Origin: an alpha proteobacterium MED-G10 | GTDB lineage: Bacteria; Pseudomonadota; Alphaproteobacteria; Methylaequorales; Methylaequoraceae | Reading direction: 5' to 3' | Assembly: GCA_002457065.1 (NCBI GenBank) | Contig: NTKR01000005.1 | Coordinates: 1-39,473, forward strand | DNA length: 39,473 nt | Part shown: piece after piece, positions 6,256-27,642 of the stretch | How the letters are laid out: each line of letters begins with the position of its first letter | How positions within the stretch are numbered: position 1 is the stretch's first letter | Position numbers and translations under genes: made by a program | Notes under the pieces: generated by a model | What the model was told of the DNA's origin: nothing | Databases searched by the model: none | The model's input: only the letters and a program-made list of their open reading frames with translations

Positions 6256-7650
6256 ATGAAAAAGTCAATAAATCCATTGTGGGGAGCTAGATTTAAACAG
6301 CAGTCTTCTGATCTGCTTGAAAAAATAAACAATTCAATAGGTTTTGATTATAAATTAGTTTTTCAGGATATCAGGCTTAATTCTATTTATTCAAAATCAC
6401 TCTACCAAGCTAAAATTATTACAAGAAAAGAATACGAGAAGATTTCAAAAGCACTTAAACAGATAAGCGAAGACTTAAACAAAGGTAACTTTGATTTTAA
6501 TCCAAAATATGAAGATATTCATATGAATATAGAAATGGCATTGAGAGAGAAAATTGGAAATTTGGCTGGAAAAATTCATACAGGTAAATCAAGAAATGAT
6601 CAGGTAGCTACTGATTTGAAATTGTGGGTTAAGGAGAAAATACAGAAAATAGTTACCAAAATAATAGATATACAAAAAACAATTATCAATAAAGCTGAAA
6701 AAAATTTAGACGTTATAATGCCTGGTTTTACACATCTCCAGAATGCACAACCAATTTTGTTTTCTCACTATATAATGTCTTTTTTTGAAATGCTTGAAAG
6801 AGATAAGTCTAGAGCTATCTATTTTAAAAAAAATCTGAATGAATGTCCCCTAGGAAGTGGAGCATTGGCGGGAACAAATTTTTATGAAATTGACAGGGTT
6901 TCTCTAGCTAAAAACCTTGGATTTAGTAAGCCAACAGAAAATTCACTAGATGGGGTTTCAGATAGAGATTTTGTTGTCGAGTTTTTATTTATTATTTCAA
7001 CTTTGAGTATGCATCTGTCAAGATTATGCGAAGACTTTATTATATGGAGCAGTAGCTCATATAATTTTTTAGACTTTCCAGATTCTTTAAGTACAGGTTC
7101 TTCAATTATGCCCCAAAAAAAAAACCCAGATTCAGCTGAACTAATCAGAGCAAAAACTGGAAGAATTTATTCATCACTAATGAACATTCTAATTGTATTA
7201 AAGGGTTTGCCTAGTGGATATAGTAAAGATTTGCAAGAGGATAAAGAGGCAGTTTTTGATTCATATTCATCTATTGAAATGATTTTAGATGTAACAGATG
7301 AAATGATAAGATCTGTGAAAATTAATAAAGCTCAGATGTTAAGCGCTTCTTTTCAAGGTTATTCAACTGCAACTGATTTGGCTGATTGGATTGTAAAAAA
7401 ACTAGATAGAACATTTAGAGAGGCCCATCATATTACGGGAAAAATTGTATTAATTGCTGAGGAAAACAAAAAAAGTTTAGATAAATTAGATTTAACACTT
7501 ATGCAATCAGTTGAACCTAAAATCACTAAAGATGTATATAATTATTTATCCCCAAAATGTTCAGTTGATCAAAAAAAATCTTTTGGAGGTACAGCTACAT
7601 CTCAAGTCAAGTCTGCTATAACTAGGGCAAAAAAAAAACTCAAAATATAA
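6256..7650 (+). CDS. argH: Argininosuccinate lyase
   Basis: ArgH cleaves argininosuccinate to arginine and fumarate, the last step of arginine biosynthesis, in the cytoplasm. The 464-residue length is normal. Motifs of the fumarase/aspartase superfamily are clear: HTGKSRNDQVATD (108-120), PGFTHLQNAQP (156-166, with the TH pair), and the flexible signature loop GSSIMPQKKNPD (281-292) carrying the catalytic serine. LPSGYSKDLQEDKEAVFDS follows. It is the first gene of argH-lptM-lysA, with the lipoprotein gene starting 1 base after its stop. Two amino-acid biosynthesis genes (Arg, Lys) are therefore co-transcribed with an envelope lipoprotein. Confidence 0.97.
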   Translation: MKKSINPLWGARFKQQSSDLLEKINNSIGFDYKLVFQDIRLNSIYSKSLYQAKIITRKEYEKISKALKQISEDLNKGNFDFNPKYEDIHMNIEMALREKIGNLAGKIHTGKSRNDQVATDLKLWVKEKIQKIVTKIIDIQKTIINKAEKNLDVIMPGFTHLQNAQPILFSHYIMSFFEMLERDKSRAIYFKKNLNECPLGSGALAGTNFYEIDRVSLAKNLGFSKPTENSLDGVSDRDFVVEFLFIISTLSMHLSRLCEDFIIWSSSSYNFLDFPDSLSTGSSIMPQKKNPDSAELIRAKTGRIYSSLMNILIVLKGLPSGYSKDLQEDKEAVFDSYSSIEMILDVTDEMIRSVKINKAQMLSASFQGYSTATDLADWIVKKLDRTFREAHHITGKIVLIAEENKKSLDKLDLTLMQSVEPKITKDVYNYLSPKCSVDQKKSFGGTATSQVKSAITRAKKKLKI

Positions 7651-7651
7651 G

Positions 7652-7774
7652 ATGAAACACCTTAAATATTTATTTATAATTGTAATTTTATCACTTTATG
7701 GATGCGGAAAAAAGACTAGTCTTGATAGATATCCAGATAGTGATTATCCCAAACAATATCCTAAAGAAAAATGA
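7652..7774 (+). CDS. lptM: LptM-like small lipoprotein
   Basis: This short gene encodes 40 residues: an N-terminal signal MKHLKYLFIIVILSLYGC with a lipobox (LYGC, lipid-anchored Cys18), then CGKKTSLDRYPDSDYPKQYP. The CGKK...L start and the YP...YPKQYP tail match the tiny lipoproteins (YifL/LptM, LPS-translocon maturation type) that precede lysA or dapF in many proteobacteria. LptM is reported to help the outer-membrane LPS translocon LptDE mature. The gene begins 1 base after argH and its stop overlaps the lysA start by 4 bases (ATGA at 7771-7774), so all three are probably translated from one message. The family assignment rests on the lipobox, tail and position; the function is inferred from the family. 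Confidence 0.8.
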   Translation: MKHLKYLFIIVILSLYGCGKKTSLDRYPDSDYPKQYPKEK

Positions 7775-8991
7775 AAAATGTGACTAAATATAATAAATAC
7801 TTAGAATACAAAAAAGATATTTTATTCTTTGATAAAATAAATCTTGAAGAGTTATCTAAAAAAATAAAGACACCAGCCTATTGTTATTCTGTTTTACAAA
7901 TAAAAGATAATTTTGAGCAACTGAGAAAATCTTTCAAAAAAATCAATCCATTAATTTGTTACGCTGTTAAAGCTAATTTTAATCATAATATTATAAATAC
8001 ATTATCGAAACTTGGAGCAGGAGCTGATGTTGTTTCAAAAGGTGAATTAAAACAATCTATAAATAACGGTGTTAGAGCAAATAAAATTGTATTTTCAGGT
8101 GTAGGTAAAACTATTGATGAATTAGAATTTGCTATTTTTAAAAATATTAAACAAATAAATGTTGAAAGTGAAGAAGAGCTCAATGATATTGAAGAAATTT
8201 GTAAAAAAAAAAACAAAAAAATAGATATTGGTCTAAGAGTAAACCCTAATGTTGATGCCAAGACACACTCTAAGATATCAACAGGAAGATATGAAGATAA
8301 ATTTGGGATACCAGAAAATAGAATTATAAAAATTTTTGAAAAGTTTAAAGGTAATAACTTTCTTAAGGTAAATAGCTTATCAATACATATTGGCTCGCAA
8401 ATAACAACTTTAGAACCTTTTAGTCAAGCATTTAAAAAATTAAGAAAACTTACTATAGAACTAAAAAAAAAAAATTTTTTTATAAAATCTTTAGATATTG
8501 GTGGAGGAATAGGGGTAACATATAATGAAAAAAAAGATAAAATTTTCAAAATATCTAGTTATGTAAAACTTGTTGAAAGAAACTTTTCAGACTTAGATGC
8601 AGAGATAATTCTTGAGCCAGGAAGGTATTTAGTTGGCGAGTCAGGAATACTTTTGTCCAAGGTAGTCAGACTAAAAAAAGGAGAAGAAAAAACTTTTCTA
8701 ATAATAGATGCAGGAATGAATAATCTTATCAGACCATCACTGTACAACGCCGAGCATCAGATTTTCCCAGTAAGGAAAAAAAAAATTAAAAAGAAATTTG
8801 ATATAGTTGGCCCAGTTTGCGAAAGTAGCGATGTTTTTAGAAAAGACTTTGTAACTTCAGAGCTTAAACAAAATAATTTAATTATTATATCTTCCGTCGG
8901 TGCATACGGATCTTGTATGTCGTCAGGTTACAATCTTAGAGAAAATGCAATGGAAATACTAATAGAGGGAAAAAAAATAATTGGAATTTAA
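7771..8991 (+). CDS. lysA: Diaminopimelate decarboxylase
   Basis: LysA is a PLP enzyme that decarboxylates meso-diaminopimelate to lysine. The 406-residue protein has the PLP-lysine motif ICYAVKANFN (62-71, K67), SIHIGSQI, the glycine-rich LDIGGGIGVTY, the phosphate-binding EPGRYLVGESG, and the substrate/catalytic CESSDVF near residue 350, followed by GAYGSCMSSGYN. These are all the expected alanine-racemase-fold decarboxylase landmarks. The ATG overlaps the lipoprotein stop by 4 bases. A run of 12 A then 7 T at 8463-8481 and an 11-A run at 8203-8213 lie inside the gene and encode Lys/Phe-rich stretches. Confidence 0.97.
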   Translation: MKNVTKYNKYLEYKKDILFFDKINLEELSKKIKTPAYCYSVLQIKDNFEQLRKSFKKINPLICYAVKANFNHNIINTLSKLGAGADVVSKGELKQSINNGVRANKIVFSGVGKTIDELEFAIFKNIKQINVESEEELNDIEEICKKKNKKIDIGLRVNPNVDAKTHSKISTGRYEDKFGIPENRIIKIFEKFKGNNFLKVNSLSIHIGSQITTLEPFSQAFKKLRKLTIELKKKNFFIKSLDIGGGIGVTYNEKKDKIFKISSYVKLVERNFSDLDAEIILEPGRYLVGESGILLSKVVRLKKGEEKTFLIIDAGMNNLIRPSLYNAEHQIFPVRKKKIKKKFDIVGPVCESSDVFRKDFVTSELKQNNLIIISSVGAYGSCMSSGYNLRENAMEILIEGKKIIGI

Positions 8992-8996
8992 TTATT

Positions 8997-9632
8997 ATGA
9001 ATGAAATACTCCGACTTGATAATGTGTCTTTGAGTATAAATAAGAAAAAAATTTTCAACTTATCTTTTCAAATTAATAAAGGAGATTTTTTTCTGATCAA
9101 AGGTGACAACGCAGTAGGCAAATCACTTCTTTTAAAATTACTATTCTTAAAAGTTATGCCCTCCTCTGGAAATATTTATCTTCTCGGGAAAAAGATTAAT
9201 CAAGAAAATAAAGACTATATTTTATCATATCGTAAAAGAACAGGTGTGATATTACAAAATGATTATTTAATTCCATTCTTTTCAGTTTATCAAAATATTG
9301 AGATAGCCAGTGAAATTCAAAGTAAGAAAGAAAATTTCAAAAAAAAGATTGTTGAATTAATTGAATGGTTTAACCTTAATAATATAGAAAATAAAATTGT
9401 AAATAATCTGTCAAATGGTGAGAAACAAAGAGTAGTAATAGCTAGAGCATTAATTAATAACCCTAAAATAGTGATTGCTGATTATCCAGAGAATAGTTTA
9501 GATTTGTCAACTACAAAAAAGTTATTTTTTCTTTTAGAGTCATTGAATAAACTTGGTGCTACAGTAATAATGACTTCAAAAAACCCGGAACTCTTAAGTA
9601 TAAACTATAAATCAATTATTTTGGGAGAATGA
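8997..9632 (+). CDS. ftsE: FtsE-like ABC ATPase with degenerate catalytic motifs
   Basis: This is the cytoplasmic ATPase partner of FtsX in the cell-division complex that controls septal peptidoglycan amidases through EnvC-type factors. The 211-residue protein has an intact Walker A (GDNAVGKS, 36-43), Q-loop (VILQND, Q87) and ABC signature (LSNGEKQ, 138-144). The Walker B region reads VIADYPENSLD, so the catalytic Glu that normally follows the Asp (ADEPTGNLD in relatives) is Tyr163. The switch histidine (ATHD in relatives) is Lys195 in MTSKNPEL. ATP binding may be kept while hydrolysis is weak or lost. Identity as FtsE rests on the adjoining ftsX and the alphaproteobacterial order ftsE-ftsX-DUF218-plsC. 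A LolD-like or generic ABC ATPase is the alternative. Confidence 0.85.
   Translation: MNEILRLDNVSLSINKKKIFNLSFQINKGDFFLIKGDNAVGKSLLLKLLFLKVMPSSGNIYLLGKKINQENKDYILSYRKRTGVILQNDYLIPFFSVYQNIEIASEIQSKKENFKKKIVELIEWFNLNNIENKIVNNLSNGEKQRVVIARALINNPKIVIADYPENSLDLSTTKKLFFLLESLNKLGATVIMTSKNPELLSINYKSIILGE
9623..9627 (+). promoter_or_regulatory. Ribosome binding site for TTG-initiated ftsX
   Basis: A GGGAG core lies 6 bases before the TTG at 9634, inside the end of ftsE. It supports the TTG start and translational coupling of ftsE and ftsX. Confidence 0.6.
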
Positions 9633-9633
9633 T

Positions 9634-10533
9634 TTGATTTCTTACCAGCAAATATTAAAGAAAATATTATTAAAAGATGAGGAGAAGTTTTTTTATGGTT
9701 TATCATTTGTTATAATTAGTTTGATTGCTATTCATGTAATTCTTTATTTTAATTTTTATAAATTTTCTAGTAATTGGATTGATCTAGAATCTAAAAAAAC
9801 AACTTTTATTCTTAGCAACAATGCTGATGAAAAAGAAATACCTATTTCTGTGAGCGAAAATATAAAGGATTTCTTAATTAATAACACAAGTATAGATTCG
9901 TATAAAATAATTGATTCAGTTACAATAAAAGATAGTTTAGGTCTTGAAAGTATAGATGAATTATCGGGTCTTGAATTACCAATGATTTTTCAAGTAGTTT
10001 CAAATAAAAAAGAGGTAGTTGACTCAATTTATAAGAATATTATCGATATTTCTCAAAATAGATTTGTTGAAAAATACTCTCACGAGGACCAACTTTTTGA
10101 AATTAGTATTATAGTTAATAGAATAAAAGTAATTATATTTATTATGTTTTTACTTGTTTTTATTTTATTCTCTTTTTTAGTTATGAACATAGTCAAAGCA
10201 GCTTTAGTGTCAAATTTTAAATTGTTAGAAATGCTTCAAATAATGGGAGCAAGTAGTATTGAATTAGCTAAAAATATCTCTCAAAGTATCATAAAAAAGA
10301 TCCTTCCTGGAGCATTGCTGAGTCTAGTATTTGTTTTCCTTGTTAGTATTTTGTTAATCAATTTATTTGGAGCAAATTTTCAGTTTTTTGATTCTTCCTT
10401 TTTTGTAGAACTAGTATTTTCAAGTTTATTTTTGTTACTTTTGTTTATGATTTTATTTTTGCTATTTCTTTTAATTTTTTTAACCACTTATTTGTATCAT
10501 TTTTTTGAGAATAGATTTTTTGATAAACTTTAG
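9634..10533 (+). CDS. ftsX: FtsX-like cell-division permease
   Basis: This 299-residue membrane protein has the FtsX topology: a cytoplasmic N-terminus, one helix (about 22-42), a large periplasmic domain of about 120 residues, then three helices (about 163-190, 222-247 and 258-290). FtsX passes the state of FtsE across the membrane to an EnvC-like activator of septal amidases. Sequence conservation is weak, as is usual for FtsX; the call depends on topology, length and the neighbouring ATPase. The start is TTG at 9634 with GGGAG upstream. The C-terminal end is overlapped by the next gene. Confidence 0.8.
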   Translation: MISYQQILKKILLKDEEKFFYGLSFVIISLIAIHVILYFNFYKFSSNWIDLESKKTTFILSNNADEKEIPISVSENIKDFLINNTSIDSYKIIDSVTIKDSLGLESIDELSGLELPMIFQVVSNKKEVVDSIYKNIIDISQNRFVEKYSHEDQLFEISIIVNRIKVIIFIMFLLVFILFSFLVMNIVKAALVSNFKLLEMLQIMGASSIELAKNISQSIIKKILPGALLSLVFVFLVSILLINLFGANFQFFDSSFFVELVFSSLFLLLLFMILFLLFLLIFLTTYLYHFFENRFFDKL

Positions 10534-11101
10534 AAAAATTTTTTTTGTTATTTTAACTCTCATCATTTCAGGCTTTATTTGGTGGTTAATTCTTTTATTT
10601 AATACTTTGCCAAAGAAATACTATTCAACAAAGTTTCCAGATACCTCAGACGATGTTGGGATAATTGTCTTAACTGGTGGCAAAATGAGAATTGAAAAAG
10701 GTATTGAAATTCTTCAAAAAGGATACGCAACAAAAATGTTTATATCGGGAGTTTTTATGCCCTCAGAAATTCAGGTAAAATTGAATTATGAAAAAAATAA
10801 AAAGGATCTTTTGGAATGTTGTATATTCTTTGGTGAAGAGGCTAGGAATACAATCGAAAATGCAGTTGAAGTTAGAAACTGGCTGATCAAAAATAAGGAA
10901 ATTGACAAGATTATTTTAGTTACCTCTTATTATCATTTACCCAGAAGCATTTTAATTTTTGAAAAAAAACTAAGAAATATTTCAATCCTTGCAAAGCCAG
11001 CGGTTGATGAGGTTAACGTTCTTGACGAACCAACATTTCATTTAAGATTAATAGTTTCAGAATATTTTAAAGTGATTTATTCCCTTATCTTTGTAAGATG
11101 A
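10505..11101 (+). CDS. DUF218 (YdcF-like) membrane-anchored protein
   Basis: This 198-residue protein has one N-terminal membrane anchor (about 10-32, FFVILTLIISGFIWWLILLF). A DUF218 domain follows, with GIIVLTGGKMRIEKGIEILQ, KMFISGV, EEARNTIENAVEVRNWL and ILVTSYYHLPRSI; these are the usual conserved Gly, Glu-Asn and Ser-xx-His segments. The family includes E. coli YdcF and ElyC/SanA, linked to envelope metabolism, but the reaction is unknown. The gene overlaps ftsX by 29 bases using a TTG start at 10505; a second in-frame TTG at 10520 is possible. Its stop overlaps plsC (ATGA). The ftsEX neighbourhood points to an envelope role. Confidence 0.8.
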   Translation: MRIDFLINFRKIFFVILTLIISGFIWWLILLFNTLPKKYYSTKFPDTSDDVGIIVLTGGKMRIEKGIEILQKGYATKMFISGVFMPSEIQVKLNYEKNKKDLLECCIFFGEEARNTIENAVEVRNWLIKNKEIDKIILVTSYYHLPRSILIFEKKLRNISILAKPAVDEVNVLDEPTFHLRLIVSEYFKVIYSLIFVR

Positions 11102-11784
11102 ATTTATTAAGAAACTTAGTCTTTTATTTTATTTTCTACTCGTGGACGGTATTTTTTTTTTTAATATTCTCACCTGTAAAATTATTTCCAAAGAAGTTTC
11201 TTCTTTTTCTCTCCAACTTATGGACAAGTAAAGTTATAAAAATCACACAAAAAATTTTAAAAATTGATTATGAGTTGATTGGCATTAAAAATATTCCTAA
11301 AAACACTTCATTTTTAATAACTAGCAACCATCAATCTGCATGGGAAACTTTTTTCTTAAGTTTTTTTTTTAAAGGTTCAATTTTTATATTAAAAGAAGAA
11401 TTAAAAAGAATACCCTTAATGTCTTTATATTTCAAAGAGCTAGGATTTATTTTTATAAATAGAAATAGTGGATTTAAATCTATAAAAAATATTATTTCAT
11501 CAATTAAGGAATTAGAAAAAAAAGGAGTGAGAAAATTCATAATTTTTCCTGAGGGGACAAGAATACCCGTCAATACTAGGGGGCAAATCAATCCTGGAGT
11601 ATTTGCCATCCACAAAATCTTAAAAATTCCTGTTTTACCAATTAAGCATAATTCAGGAAGATATTGGAAGAATAAAAGATTTATTAAGGAGCCTGGCAAG
11701 ATTAGGGTAGAATTTTATCCAGTCATAAAAAATACATCTAATAAAAAACTATTTATGAAAAAAATTGAAAAAATATTTTACTAA
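11098..11784 (+). CDS. plsC: 1-acyl-sn-glycerol-3-phosphate acyltransferase (PlsC family)
   Basis: This enzyme is predicted to acylate lysophosphatidic acid to phosphatidic acid at the inner membrane. The 228-residue protein has a hydrophobic N-terminus (about 8-27), the acceptor motif SNHQSAWETFF (76-86) and the substrate-binding IIFPEGTRIP (148-157) and GVFAIHKILKIPVLPI. The catalytic block reads H-x4-E (H78, E83) in place of the textbook H-x4-D; I recall KHQSxWET-type variants in alphaproteobacterial homologues, so this may be lineage-normal. The ATG overlaps the DUF218 stop by 4 bases, and the stop overlaps the convergent tyrA end by 4 bases. Confidence 0.9.
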   Translation: MNLLRNLVFYFIFYSWTVFFFLIFSPVKLFPKKFLLFLSNLWTSKVIKITQKILKIDYELIGIKNIPKNTSFLITSNHQSAWETFFLSFFFKGSIFILKEELKRIPLMSLYFKELGFIFINRNSGFKSIKNIISSIKELEKKGVRKFIIFPEGTRIPVNTRGQINPGVFAIHKILKIPVLPIKHNSGRYWKNKRFIKEPGKIRVEFYPVIKNTSNKKLFMKKIEKIFY

Positions 11785-12671
11785 TTTTTAACTTTAGTGG
11801 TTTTTATTACACTCTTTCTAATTTGTTTGTTTCTTCTCAAAAGATCAAAAATCTTGTCAATTTTTTGATTTTTTATAAGTTCTTTTAAATAATCAATATC
11901 ATTAAGGAAGCTATTTAAAGTTTTGATTATATGTTTTTTATTCGCAAGGAAAATATCAGTCCACATTTTTGGATCTGATGAACCAATTCTCGTAAAGTCT
12001 TTGAACCCACCTGCTGAAAAGTTAATAAGATCTCTTTTTTTTTTCAAATCAACTCCAAAAGCTGTCCCTACGATTGTAAATGCTATAAGGTGAGGGAGAT
12101 GAGACGTAATAGACATTATTTTATCATGCTCATCCATTGACATTATTGAGACCTTCATACCAATTTCCTTCCAAATTTTTGCTAGTATAGATAATGATTT
12201 TTTTTGTTTTTGAATGGGTGTAAGAATACACCATTTTTTTTCAAATAAGTTAACTTTGGAATTTTTTGCACCAGAATACTCTGTACCAGCAATAGGGTGT
12301 CCAGGAATTAAATTACATTTCTCTTTTGCTAAATTTATAGTTTTTTTACTGAAACATTTTTTTACGGATCCTACATCTGTTATTATAGTTTCTTTATTCG
12401 TAATAAAAGGTAAAATCTCTGCTACTAATGAATCTATTTTACTGACTGGAGTACATATAAAAATTATTTGGCTTTTTGAAATTCTGTCATCAATCTTATG
12501 TCTTTTTTCATCAATTGCTTTTACCTTTTGCGCATCTATTAGGTTAGATTTTGAATTGTCAATTCCAACTATTTTACTTGAAATTTTTTTTTTTTTAAGA
12601 GCTAGTCCTATTGAGGCGCCAATAAGTCCAGGCCCAATAATCGTAATTTCTTTAATTTTTTTTTGTAACAT
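11781..12671 (-). CDS. tyrA: Prephenate/arogenate dehydrogenase
   Basis: TyrA oxidatively decarboxylates prephenate (or arogenate) with NAD(P)+ in tyrosine biosynthesis. The 296-residue protein has an N-terminal Rossmann motif TIIGPGLIGASIGLALKKK (10-28), IFICTPVSKI, TDVGSVK, the substrate segment GHPIAGTEYSGAKNS, ITSHLPHLIAF and FSAGGFKDFTRIGSSDPKMW. These are typical of monofunctional cyclohexadienyl dehydrogenases; substrate preference cannot be read directly. There is no fused chorismate mutase or ACT domain. The start codon overlaps the hisC stop by one base (TAATG), so it is translationally coupled to hisC, which may supply the aromatic aminotransferase step. Confidence 0.93.
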   Translation of the reverse strand: MLQKKIKEITIIGPGLIGASIGLALKKKKISSKIVGIDNSKSNLIDAQKVKAIDEKRHKIDDRISKSQIIFICTPVSKIDSLVAEILPFITNKETIITDVGSVKKCFSKKTINLAKEKCNLIPGHPIAGTEYSGAKNSKVNLFEKKWCILTPIQKQKKSLSILAKIWKEIGMKVSIMSMDEHDKIMSITSHLPHLIAFTIVGTAFGVDLKKKRDLINFSAGGFKDFTRIGSSDPKMWTDIFLANKKHIIKTLNSFLNDIDYLKELIKNQKIDKIFDLLRRNKQIRKSVIKTTKVKN

Positions 12672-23831: not shown

Positions 23832-25340
23832 ATGTTAAAAAGAAAAGTATTATTGTGTATATTAGACGGCTGGGGAATTGGGGAAAAAAATCCTTTTAAT
23901 GCTATATCAGAGGCAGATAAAAACAATTTCGATAACATTAATAAAACTTATGGCTCTATTAAGCTTAATGCGTCAGAGAAGAAAGTAGGTCTACCAGAAG
24001 GACAATTTGGTAATTCTGAGGTTGGGCATATGAATATTGGTGCTGGAAGAATAATATTACAAGATATTCTAAGAATTGATGAAGGTTTTAAGAATGGATC
24101 AATTGAACAGAATAATTCTCTCGTTGAAATTAAAGAAAAGTGTAAAAGAATTCATATATGTGGACTTCTTTCGGATGGAGGGGTTCATGGGCACCAAGAG
24201 CATTTATTTAAGATGATAGAGATTTTTGAGAAATCAGATAAACAAATTCTTCTTCATTGTTTTCTTGATGGAAGAGATAGTTCACCCCTATCAGGGATAA
24301 AAAATATGAAACTACTTCTTGAAAAGATAAGAAAAAAAAAAAATGTCAAAGTTGTAAGTGTATCTGGCAGATTTTACTCAATGGATCGTGATAATCGATG
24401 GGAAAGGATTAAGAAAGCCTATGAAGCTATAATTGAAGGGTCTGCTTCAGTTAAAAAAGATTGTATTCAAGCAATTCAAGAAAGTTATGATAAAAAAATC
24501 ACAGATGAATTTTTTAGGCCAGTAAATTTTTCTGATTATAGTGGTGTAGAGGAAAACGACGGATTTTTTATTACAAATTACAGGGCAGACAGAGTTAGAG
24601 AATTATTGACAGCAATATTTGATGAGAATTTCTTAGAGTTTGAAAGAAAAAAAATAGCTAAATTTATTAAACCCTTAAGTATGATTCAGTATTCAAAACG
24701 ACTAAAAAAAAAAATACTTCCACTTATTAAACCATTGTTAATTAAGAATAGTCTTGGAGAAGTTTTATCTCAGAACAAGTTAAATCAACTTAGGATCACT
24801 GAGACAGAAAAATATGCTCATATTACCTATTTTTTTAATGGAGGTATTGAGGATTGTTTTCCAGAAGAAGATAGAATTTTAATACCATCCCCGAGAGTAG
24901 AAACTTATGATGAGAAACCTGAAATGTCAGCGTATGAATTAACCAAAGAGCTAGAGAATAAAATTGAAACTAACAAATACAATTTTATTTTAACTAATTT
25001 TGCAAATCCTGATATGGTTGGGCATACAGGTAATCTTAGAGCTACAATAAAAGCGATAGAAGTCGTAGATGAGTGTTTAGGAAGAATTTATAAAAAATGT
25101 TTGGATAATAATTACATATTAATCGTTACCTCTGATCATGGAAATGCAGATGTTATGTACAATAAAGATGATGAAATTAAATGTACAACCCACTCAATTA
25201 ACCCTGTGCCATTTATTATTTGTGAAAATTTTAAGTTTATAAAAAATAAAGGTTCTTTGGCTGATATTGCACCCACAATACTCAAAATTATGAACATAAA
25301 AACCCCTGAAGAAATGCAGGGAAGCTGTTTGATAGAATGA
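23832..25340 (+). CDS. gpmI: 2,3-bisphosphoglycerate-independent phosphoglycerate mutase
   Basis: GpmI interconverts 3- and 2-phosphoglycerate in glycolysis/gluconeogenesis using two Mn ions. The 502-residue protein has VLLCILDGWGIG (6-17), the phosphoserine motif FGNSEVGHMNIGAGR (59-73, S62), DGGVHGHQEH, FLDGRDSSP, SGRFYSMDRDNRWER, NYRADRVREL and the metal-binding NFANPDMVGHTG and TSDHGNADVM. It stands 7 bases after rlmH and overlaps the envC-like gene by 4 bases. A 12-A run at 24332-24343 encodes the KIRKKKNV stretch. Confidence 0.97.
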   Translation: MLKRKVLLCILDGWGIGEKNPFNAISEADKNNFDNINKTYGSIKLNASEKKVGLPEGQFGNSEVGHMNIGAGRIILQDILRIDEGFKNGSIEQNNSLVEIKEKCKRIHICGLLSDGGVHGHQEHLFKMIEIFEKSDKQILLHCFLDGRDSSPLSGIKNMKLLLEKIRKKKNVKVVSVSGRFYSMDRDNRWERIKKAYEAIIEGSASVKKDCIQAIQESYDKKITDEFFRPVNFSDYSGVEENDGFFITNYRADRVRELLTAIFDENFLEFERKKIAKFIKPLSMIQYSKRLKKKILPLIKPLLIKNSLGEVLSQNKLNQLRITETEKYAHITYFFNGGIEDCFPEEDRILIPSPRVETYDEKPEMSAYELTKELENKIETNKYNFILTNFANPDMVGHTGNLRATIKAIEVVDECLGRIYKKCLDNNYILIVTSDHGNADVMYNKDDEIKCTTHSINPVPFIICENFKFIKNKGSLADIAPTILKIMNIKTPEEMQGSCLIE

Positions 25341-26356
25341 GGTTGTTTTTCCTTTTTCTAATTCTTTTGAATTTTTCTGTATTTGCAGAAACTAAAAGTT
25401 TAAAGAAAAATCTAGATAAATTAAAAAAGCAAACAGTGACAATACATAATGATATTATTAAAAATAATTCTGAATTAAAAAAGATAAAAATAGATATTGA
25501 TAGAAATTCACAAAAAAAATTTATTTTTGAGAAACATATAAAGTCAAGAGAATATATAGGAAAAAGATTAATTTTTTTGTTACAAGAAAAAATCTATCTT
25601 TCACCAGTTACAAAGATAATTAACAATCTATTTTTCCAATCAGAGGATTTTCTTACAAAACAGATAGTGAGAGAATTTTTTTTAAAAAAAGTTAGGATTG
25701 GTATTAATGATTTTTTCTTAAGTTTAAGATCAATTTCAGATTTAAAAAATGAGTTAAATGAGAAACTCCTCGTTTATGAAAAAAAGAAAAAAAGTTTAAG
25801 AAAGAAATTAATAAAATTAGAGAAAAAAATTGAAGAAGTTGCCAAGCTTCAAAAGAAAATTAAGGTAGACGTTAATCTAAGAGTAAAAGAAAAAAGATTT
25901 AAGAAAAAAGCAAAAAATTTAAATGAGCTTGTACAAGGTGTAAAAACAAAAAAAGTAAAAAAGATTTTAAAAAAAAAGAAAATAATTGGTGATATAAAAT
26001 CTCCTGTCCAAGGAAGAATTATTTCAAATTATGGAGAAGGTAAAGACTCAAGAAAGTCAAAAAATGGAGTGATTTTTCAAGTCTTAGAGGAATCTTTTGT
26101 TACATCACCAATAAATGGAGTGGTTGTCTATGCTAATCAATTCAGAAGCTATGGAAATTTAGTTATTATAGAAAATGATGAAGGTTATTATTGTATTTTG
26201 TCTGGAATGAAAAAAATTATTATTTCATCAGGTAATGAAGTTTTTATGGGGGAGCCTATAGCAAAATTATCTGCAGATACAAACAATCAATTATATTTTG
26301 AATTAAGGCTTAATGGAAAAATTATTAATCCAAAATCAAAAGTTGAGATTTTATAA
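25337..26356 (+). CDS. envC: EnvC-like amidase activator with degenerate LytM domain
   Basis: This 339-residue exported protein has a signal peptide (1-18, cleavage near VFA-ET), a long Lys/Glu-rich coiled coil (about 22-215) and a C-terminal M23/LytM-like domain (about 220-339) with SPVQGRIISNYG, SPINGVVVYANQFRSYGNL and QLYFELRLNGKIINP. The zinc ligands of active LytM peptidases are absent: the SKNGVIFQ segment lacks the first His and Asp, and GYYCILSG lacks the HxH. It therefore fits EnvC-type factors that activate septal amidases under FtsEX control rather than a hydrolase. The ftsE-ftsX genes are about 15 kb upstream. The gpmI-envC-ctpA order is standard for Alphaproteobacteria. Confidence 0.87.
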   Translation: MRLFFLFLILLNFSVFAETKSLKKNLDKLKKQTVTIHNDIIKNNSELKKIKIDIDRNSQKKFIFEKHIKSREYIGKRLIFLLQEKIYLSPVTKIINNLFFQSEDFLTKQIVREFFLKKVRIGINDFFLSLRSISDLKNELNEKLLVYEKKKKSLRKKLIKLEKKIEEVAKLQKKIKVDVNLRVKEKRFKKKAKNLNELVQGVKTKKVKKILKKKKIIGDIKSPVQGRIISNYGEGKDSRKSKNGVIFQVLEESFVTSPINGVVVYANQFRSYGNLVIIENDEGYYCILSGMKKIIISSGNEVFMGEPIAKLSADTNNQLYFELRLNGKIINPKSKVEIL

Positions 26357-26376: not shown

Positions 26377-27642
26377 ATGAAAAAATTTTTTTTAACTTGT
26401 TTGTTAATTCTTTGGACTTTTCCTCTATCAGCTGAAGAAGAGAAAAATGTTTACAAATACTTAAATCTTTTTGGGGAGGCATTCGAAAAAATCAAGAATA
26501 ACTATGTAGAAGAAGTATCGTCCAAAGAGTTAATTGAGTCAGCTATTGAAGGAATGTTAAGTTCACTAGATCCACATTCTACTTTCTTGAATAACCAAGA
26601 ATTAAATGAATTAAAAGTTCAAACCAAAGGTGAGTTTGGAGGCTTAGGGATTGAGGTTACTTTAGAGAATGGATTTGTAAAAGTTATTTCCCCCATTGAT
26701 GATACTCCAGCATCGAGAGCTGGAATTCAAGCTGGAGATATGATTACACATTTAGATGATGAGCCAGTTCTAGGAATGACGTTGTCAGAGGCAGTTTCCC
26801 TTATGAGAGGGAAGGTTGGGTCAAAGATAAAATTGACAGTAAGCAGAGAGGAGAACCAGACTTTACAAATAGAAATTACAAGAGCTGTTATACAGTTGAA
26901 AGCAGTTAAAGCAAGAATCGAGAACAACATTGGGTATATCAGAGTTTCTTCTTTTAATCAGAAGGTAGACACGCAAATCATTAAAGCGATAAAAGATTTT
27001 AAAAAATCAAAGGAGAGTGTAATTGGTTATGTCTTAGATCTTAGAAATAACCCTGGTGGATTATTAGATCAAGCGGTAAGCGTAACTGATATTTTTTTAA
27101 ATAGAGGTGAAATTGTTTCAACGCGAGGTAGATTTGAAAGAGAAGGTAGCCGATACAATTCAGTTAAAAAAGATTTAATAGACGGCTTACCAATGGTTGT
27201 CCTTATCAATCAGGGAAGTGCCTCTGCTTCTGAAATAGTTGCAGGTGCACTTCAAGATCACAAGAGAGCTATAATTATGGGAACAAAATCTTTTGGAAAA
27301 GGTTCTGTTCAGACCATTATTCCTTCAGGTGAAGATGTTGCTCTTAAATTAACAACTGCCAAATATTATACTCCTCTCGGAAGATCTATTCAAAAAACTG
27401 GTATAGACCCTGATATCCTTGTTGAGCAGGTAGAACTAAAAAAAGTTGAAGGTCAGAATAGGAGAAAAGAATCAGACCTCAGAGGTGCAATTGAAAATGA
27501 GCAAGAAAAAGATAAAAAGAACTCAGATAATAAAAACAAAGACAAGACTTCTAAAAAAGATACGTCAGAAGATTATCAATTAAGCAGAGCTTTTGATTTG
27601 ATTATGGCTCTGAATTTAATTGATAACAAAGTATTACAGTAA
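26377..27642 (+). CDS. ctpA: C-terminal processing peptidase (S41 family)
   Basis: This periplasmic serine protease cleaves C-termini of envelope proteins. The 421-residue protein has a signal peptide (1-19, LSA-EE), a PDZ domain (about 85-170, starting GGLGIEVTLENG, with AGDMITHLD), then the protease core GYIRVSSFN, VLDLRNNPGGLLDQA, the nucleophile region INQGSASASEIVAGALQDH (S283) and the catalytic Lys in SFGKGSVQTI (K308). A hydrophilic Lys/Asp-rich linker (about 360-400) precedes a conserved C-terminal helix DYQLSRAFDLI. Its location after envC suggests a role in turnover of peptidoglycan enzymes, which is inference. Confidence 0.96.
   Translation: MKKFFLTCLLILWTFPLSAEEEKNVYKYLNLFGEAFEKIKNNYVEEVSSKELIESAIEGMLSSLDPHSTFLNNQELNELKVQTKGEFGGLGIEVTLENGFVKVISPIDDTPASRAGIQAGDMITHLDDEPVLGMTLSEAVSLMRGKVGSKIKLTVSREENQTLQIEITRAVIQLKAVKARIENNIGYIRVSSFNQKVDTQIIKAIKDFKKSKESVIGYVLDLRNNPGGLLDQAVSVTDIFLNRGEIVSTRGRFEREGSRYNSVKKDLIDGLPMVVLINQGSASASEIVAGALQDHKRAIIMGTKSFGKGSVQTIIPSGEDVALKLTTAKYYTPLGRSIQKTGIDPDILVEQVELKKVEGQNRRKESDLRGAIENEQEKDKKNSDNKNKDKTSKKDTSEDYQLSRAFDLIMALNLIDNKVLQ

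Follow-up and report, generated by a model that had tools for sequence, protein, structure and literature searches.

A lineage of alphaproteobacterial FtsE proteins without the catalytic glutamate and switch histidine, encoded in conserved ftsEX loci

The window (the whole 39,473-nucleotide stretch of DNA analyzed here) carries an ftsEX gene pair whose FtsE has a tyrosine and a lysine at the positions of the catalytic glutamate and the switch histidine, E163 and H195 in Escherichia coli numbering (PMC11491553). Both residues are lost widely in the order of small-genome marine bacteria to which the organism belongs, while the gene, its locus and the division proteins expected to act with it are preserved. 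Our best reading of these sequences, to which we give a probability of about 0.58, is that this FtsEX recruits EnvC without hydrolyzing ATP; a catalytic site rebuilt around Glu165 is the main rival.

Comparison of the predicted protein with NCBIfam gave TIGR02673 (FtsE) as the top match, with a score of 151.5 bits that lies below the curated cut-off of 264.85, a cut-off also missed by several alphaproteobacterial FtsE proteins with intact motifs. FtsE entries ranked first in a PDB sequence search with the family profile, and for an AlphaFold2 model of the protein (mean pLDDT 90) Foldseek ranked E. coli FtsEX highest. An HMM trained on canonical FtsX from 30 alphaproteobacterial loci matched the product of the gene immediately downstream and the corresponding proteins of the relatives, and the model of that product comprises one helix, a ferredoxin-like periplasmic domain, and three helices (four transmembrane helices), with moderate similarity to FtsX (TM ~0.45). 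Together, the matches of the two genes identify the pair as ftsEX, and FtsE is an ortholog by descent according to gene order, FtsX homology, sequence, and fold. The possibility of a paralog or another ABC protein was ruled out by synteny, the FtsX HMM, and the fold. The start codon of ftsX is TTG in the window and ATG in its congeners. As references we used E. coli sequences (FtsE, FtsX, the EnvC LytM domain, and the FtsA tail), whose E163, H195, and G366 numbering matches that in the papers cited.

Table 1. Positions of the ftsEX locus, the FtsE site residues and the envC-like gene in the window
Feature	Positions	Strand	Remarks
argH and lysA, upstream conserved neighbors	6256..8991	+	lysA by NCBIfam; synteny
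ftsE, noncanonical FtsE	8997..9632	+	ATG start, 211 aa (211 codons, no internal stops); open reading frame and family match
Walker A GDNAVGKS	9102..9125	+	Lys42 = E. coli Lys41; Ala in place of the fourth Gly
Q-loop Gln87 (= E. coli Gln86)	9255..9257	+	
ABC signature LSNGE	9408..9422	+	first Gly replaced by Asn
Walker B Asp162, intact	9480..9482	+	
Tyr163 at catalytic Glu position	9483..9485	+	codon TAT; Gln (CAA/CAG) in the other 22 Glu-less relatives
Glu165	9489..9491	+	acid confined to the branch without Glu163
Lys195 at switch His position	9579..9581	+	codon AAA
ftsX	9634..10533	+	299 aa, TTG start, one base after ftsE; FtsX HMM E=5.9e-11; top Foldseek matches FtsX
DUF218 gene and plsC, downstream conserved neighbors	10505..11784	+	synteny
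tyrA-like gene, conserved convergent neighbor	11781..12671	-	synteny
envC-like gene, expected FtsEX partner	25337..26356	+	coiled coil and LytM (M23) domain without zinc ligands

The gene order argH-lysA-ftsE-ftsX-DUF218-plsC-tyrA, with tyrA on the opposite strand, surrounds all 28 orthologs found in the order, an end gene falling outside the fetched stretch or the contig in a few loci. The names argH and tyrA are ones we presume from recognition of the window sequences. In genus g4 (locus L096, G006:C7:40500-53000), the argH, lysA, and ftsX frames are each split in two. Because ftsE is whole there, these breaks are more likely to reflect poor assembly than decay.

Inspection of the codons bore out the replacement of the catalytic glutamate by Tyr163 and of the switch histidine by Lys195 that the sequence-only reading had proposed. 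It had also taken the signature, Walker A, and Q-loop to be intact; this holds for the Q-loop glutamine, but the fourth Walker A glycine and the first signature glycine are changed, and the A-loop aromatic residue is lost as well. Retained in the window protein are the Walker A lysine and serine, the Q-loop glutamine, the serine and second glycine of the signature, the Walker B aspartate, and the D-loop aspartate. Three other ABC proteins from the same genome keep both the Walker B glutamate and the histidine, which argues that the organism has not relaxed its ABC sites generally.

We then compared FtsE across the order, sampled as one family comprising 32 genomes from 12 genera. Of these genomes, 28, from 11 genera, had a clear ortholog, and the four that lacked one are 54-77% complete. 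The alignment established that the window protein is no private oddity, since the switch histidine is missing from all 28 orthologs and Glu163 from 23 of them (six of the 11 genera: g1, g3, g6, g7, g9, and g11). Tyr163 and Lys195 as such are not fixed: position 163 is glutamine in 22 of the glutamate-less sequences and tyrosine only in the window, and residue 195 is asparagine (15), serine (7), or lysine (1) in this group. The remaining five genera (g2, g4, g5, g10, and g12), each represented by one sequence, keep Glu163 and have lysine (4) or asparagine (1) at position 195. Further changes accompany the loss of the glutamate, with the fourth Walker A glycine replaced by serine or alanine in 23 of 23 such sequences, the A-loop aromatic residue lost in 22 of 23, and the second signature glycine lost in 14 of 23 (genera g9 and g11). 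The Walker A lysine and serine/threonine, the Walker B aspartate, the signature serine, and the D-loop aspartate are invariant in all 28 orthologs, and the Q-loop glutamine is present in 27. The exception is the ftsE of genus g7 (locus L092), where this residue, E. coli position 86, is a lysine, which adds one more loss to those already seen in this site.

Outside the order, both the glutamate and the histidine were kept in 45 of 45 alphaproteobacterial FtsE sequences, of which 39 came from other families (lowest-scoring matches included) and six adjoined the most similar FtsX genes. Set against none of 45 elsewhere, the loss of the histidine in 28 of 28 and of the glutamate in 23 of 28 excludes chance. 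Independent losses were also sought in a sample: among the loci fetched from 17 genomes that lacked a good FtsE match, no clear match next to an FtsX gene was seen. A second ftsE that might supply a canonical site was ruled out, as no such gene was found in the genomes of the order, where the next match is at most 39% identical.

A tree built from argH, lysA, plsC, tyrA, and DUF218, that is without ftsE and ftsX, separated the glutamate-keeping genera from the glutamine/tyrosine genera with 100% support; it was midpoint-rooted without an outgroup, and g4 was left out because of its broken frames. Since the lineages outside have both residues, the simplest history would be that the histidine was lost first and the glutamate once, followed by a change from glutamine to tyrosine in the window's line. 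FtsX appears to have been remodeled together with FtsE, because its identity, 81% between the window and its nearest relative, drops to 35-37% across the split, against 57-58% for ArgH. Inside the glutamine branch, FtsX is more conserved than FtsE.

The division proteins expected alongside FtsEX were also found. The envC-like gene of the window lies between two genes that we take to be gpmI (23832-25340) and ctpA (26377-27642). In all 13 EnvC-like sequences compared (the window and 12 relatives, of both FtsE types), the LytM domain lacks zinc ligands, as in E. coli EnvC. One genome, G007, apparently carries two envC-like genes of equal length (382-aa frame), at G007:C48:17396-17671 and G007:C3:52995-53270. 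A protein combining AMIN and Amidase_3 domains is present in 28 of 32 genomes, and its catalytic residues are intact in 5 of 5 examined (motifs DPGHGG, SLHAD, and EMGYLSN in G000:C14 and relatives). In three genomes, representing both types, we identified a DipM/NlpD-like protein that pairs two LysM domains with an M23 domain short of two ligands; most genomes have LysM matches arranged in this way. Given the presence of EnvC, the amidase, and the DipM/NlpD-like protein, the FtsEX-EnvC-amidase pathway looks complete; FtsX would bind EnvC in the periplasm, where its predicted domain lies. M23 matches also fell in open frames of 1308-21569 aa (G014:C6:15348-15635, G028:C2:200372, G015:C13:35137, and G013:C9:26268); the largest (21569 aa) must be an artifact, for instance a run of N, and very long proteins may account for the rest.

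In E. coli, FtsE E163Q supports neither growth, nor resistance, nor amidase activation: it fails to complement (PMC7668044) and blocks activation of the amidases (PMC12505981; see also PMC11491553). A loss of hydrolysis should therefore be costly unless it is compensated. In the same organism, the block of septal synthesis caused by FtsE D162N runs through FtsA, and the ftsA G366D mutation abolishes the contact between FtsEX and FtsA; when the two are combined there is no block, and cells separate by way of EnvC provided that NlpD is present (PMC7343993). We therefore compared the FtsA loop containing G366 between the order (loci L186-L212) and other alphaproteobacterial families (loci L236-L265). 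The column is glycine in 25 of 30 sequences from the other families, with no gaps, and is deleted in 25 of 25 alignable sequences from the order, where the loop is two to three residues shorter. The window's own FtsA ends at the contig end before this loop. The order also has the LysM-M23 protein, which would take the place of NlpD. These findings fit an order that may naturally be in the state permissive for a nonhydrolyzing FtsE. The deletion is also found in the glutamate-keeping genera, and FtsA is generally divergent in the order; its association with the FtsE losses links one order-wide trait to another and counts as a single coincidence only.

In the reading that we favor, an FtsE dimer would sit under FtsX and bind ATP through the retained Walker A lysine and Walker B aspartate, binding being suggested by the invariance of the lysine, the aspartate, and the serine, and would turn ATP over at no useful rate. 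The main role of FtsEX would then be the delivery of EnvC to the septum, with the complex either fixed in one state or reset by release rather than hydrolysis of ATP; conceivably, loss of the A-loop aromatic residue and the Walker A glycine could let ATP leave unhydrolyzed. Two features might make this tolerable: the altered contact with FtsA, otherwise the route of the block that a nonhydrolyzing FtsEX imposes on septal synthesis in E. coli, and a DipM/NlpD-like second activator that would share the work of separation. An FtsE that binds ATP without turnover had already been suggested from the window alone, and the absence of turnover fits the lineage-wide losses, the purifying selection, and the complete FtsEX-EnvC-amidase set well; binding is less certain, given the lost A-loop aromatic residue and Walker A glycine. 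Against our reading, the genera that keep the glutamate without the histidine may still hydrolyze ATP slowly. We hold it to be no more than a tentative extension that the order divides with an FtsEX devoid of ATP hydrolysis, enabled by the loss of the FtsA loop, such that the ATP cycle would act as a dispensable layer of control instead of driving septal splitting.

That the gene is decaying, or that the residue changes are assembly errors, is very improbable. Such a view can draw on Tyr163, which occurs in a single genome, a metagenome assembly of 0.99 Mb and 77.9% completeness, and lies two base changes from the CAA codon for glutamine, the residue found in the closest relatives (67-72% identical). 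Among the 60 columns invariant in the other glutamine-type sequences, however, the window differs at only five, four of them conservatively, so that Q163Y is the sole radical change, and the frame is open. The selection check gave approximate dN/dS values of 0.05-0.08 for ftsE (pairwise YN00/NG86 estimates), similar to those of argH and lysA, indicating purifying selection rather than decay. Codon 163 switches between CAA and CAG within and between genera while the glutamine stays unchanged, and this synonymous variation, together with dN/dS, ruled out a pseudogene or relaxed selection. Moreover, single-cell and metagenome assemblies sequenced independently of one another show the losses of the glutamate and histidine again. 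For the clade, this explanation is already largely refuted.

Two functional alternatives are unlikely in our estimation, to a similar degree, but clearly weightier than decay. One is that the site has been rebuilt, with Glu165 (aspartate in one genus), perhaps together with Gln163 or Tyr163 and residue 195, positioning the attacking water for slow hydrolysis, much as the sequence-only reading had suggested in proposing that Glu165 is used instead. Position 165, a threonine in canonical FtsE, is acidic in all 23 sequences that have lost Glu163 (22 glutamates and one aspartate) and in none of the 45 tabulated sequences that keep it, and it stays acidic through both the exchange of glutamate for aspartate in one genus and that of Gln163 for tyrosine in the window. 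This lends the suggestion some support, but the sequences form one branch and hence record a single evolutionary event, the model places residue 165 past the point where the Walker B strand ends, and the Walker A glycine and the A-loop residue are also gone, as is the second signature glycine in two genera. The other alternative is that FtsE of the glutamine branch uses no nucleotide and would act as a structural clamp, maintaining the fold of FtsX and its attachment to the Z-ring. The losses in the A-loop, Walker A, and signature counted above would follow from this, yet it is difficult to see why the residues listed above, from the Walker A lysine to the D-loop aspartate, should be invariant in all 28 orthologs if no nucleotide is bound.

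Why FtsEX must hydrolyze ATP is an open question in division biology; proposed roles are the resetting of EnvC and relief from a block mediated by FtsA. With a laboratory dead mutation natively fixed, every partner kept and the FtsA contact altered, the lineage is a ready natural experiment on FtsEX hydrolysis. The strict preservation of a gene without its ATP-burning residues suggests that a division step thought to need hydrolysis may run without it. In the open-licence papers searched, we found no published description of an FtsE lineage lacking the catalytic residues.

The FtsEX of E. coli, Pseudomonas, and Vibrio, a type VII ABC system acting through EnvC and an amidase, has the same fold, FtsX partner, gene pair, degenerate-LytM EnvC, and amidase as the system described here, which differs in having neither the catalytic glutamate nor the switch histidine and in its altered Walker A, signature, and A-loop. 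The substitution engineered in ATP-trapped FtsEX (FtsE E163Q; PDB 8i6r/8i6s; PMC11491553) is native in 22 of the 28 relatives; in E. coli it abolishes function, and in the natural proteins it is accompanied by the absence of His195 and by the changes in Walker A, the A-loop, and position 165, with tyrosine instead in the window. The proposed FtsEX can be likened to E. coli FtsE D162N in ftsA G366D cells, where a nonhydrolyzing FtsEX recruits EnvC and supports separation with NlpD (PMC7343993). That combination was engineered in the laboratory. Here the changes in both proteins are native, FtsA has undergone a deletion, and FtsE keeps its Walker B aspartate. Finally, the degenerate sites of asymmetric ABC exporters such as CFTR, MRP1, and TAP likewise lack the Walker B glutamate, often with a deviant H-loop, and bind ATP while hydrolyzing it hardly or not at all (PMC7756269). 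One of the two sites in those exporters is competent; in contrast, FtsE is expected to form a homodimer, and this presumed homodimeric ABC protein would lack the catalytic residues in both of its ATP sites.
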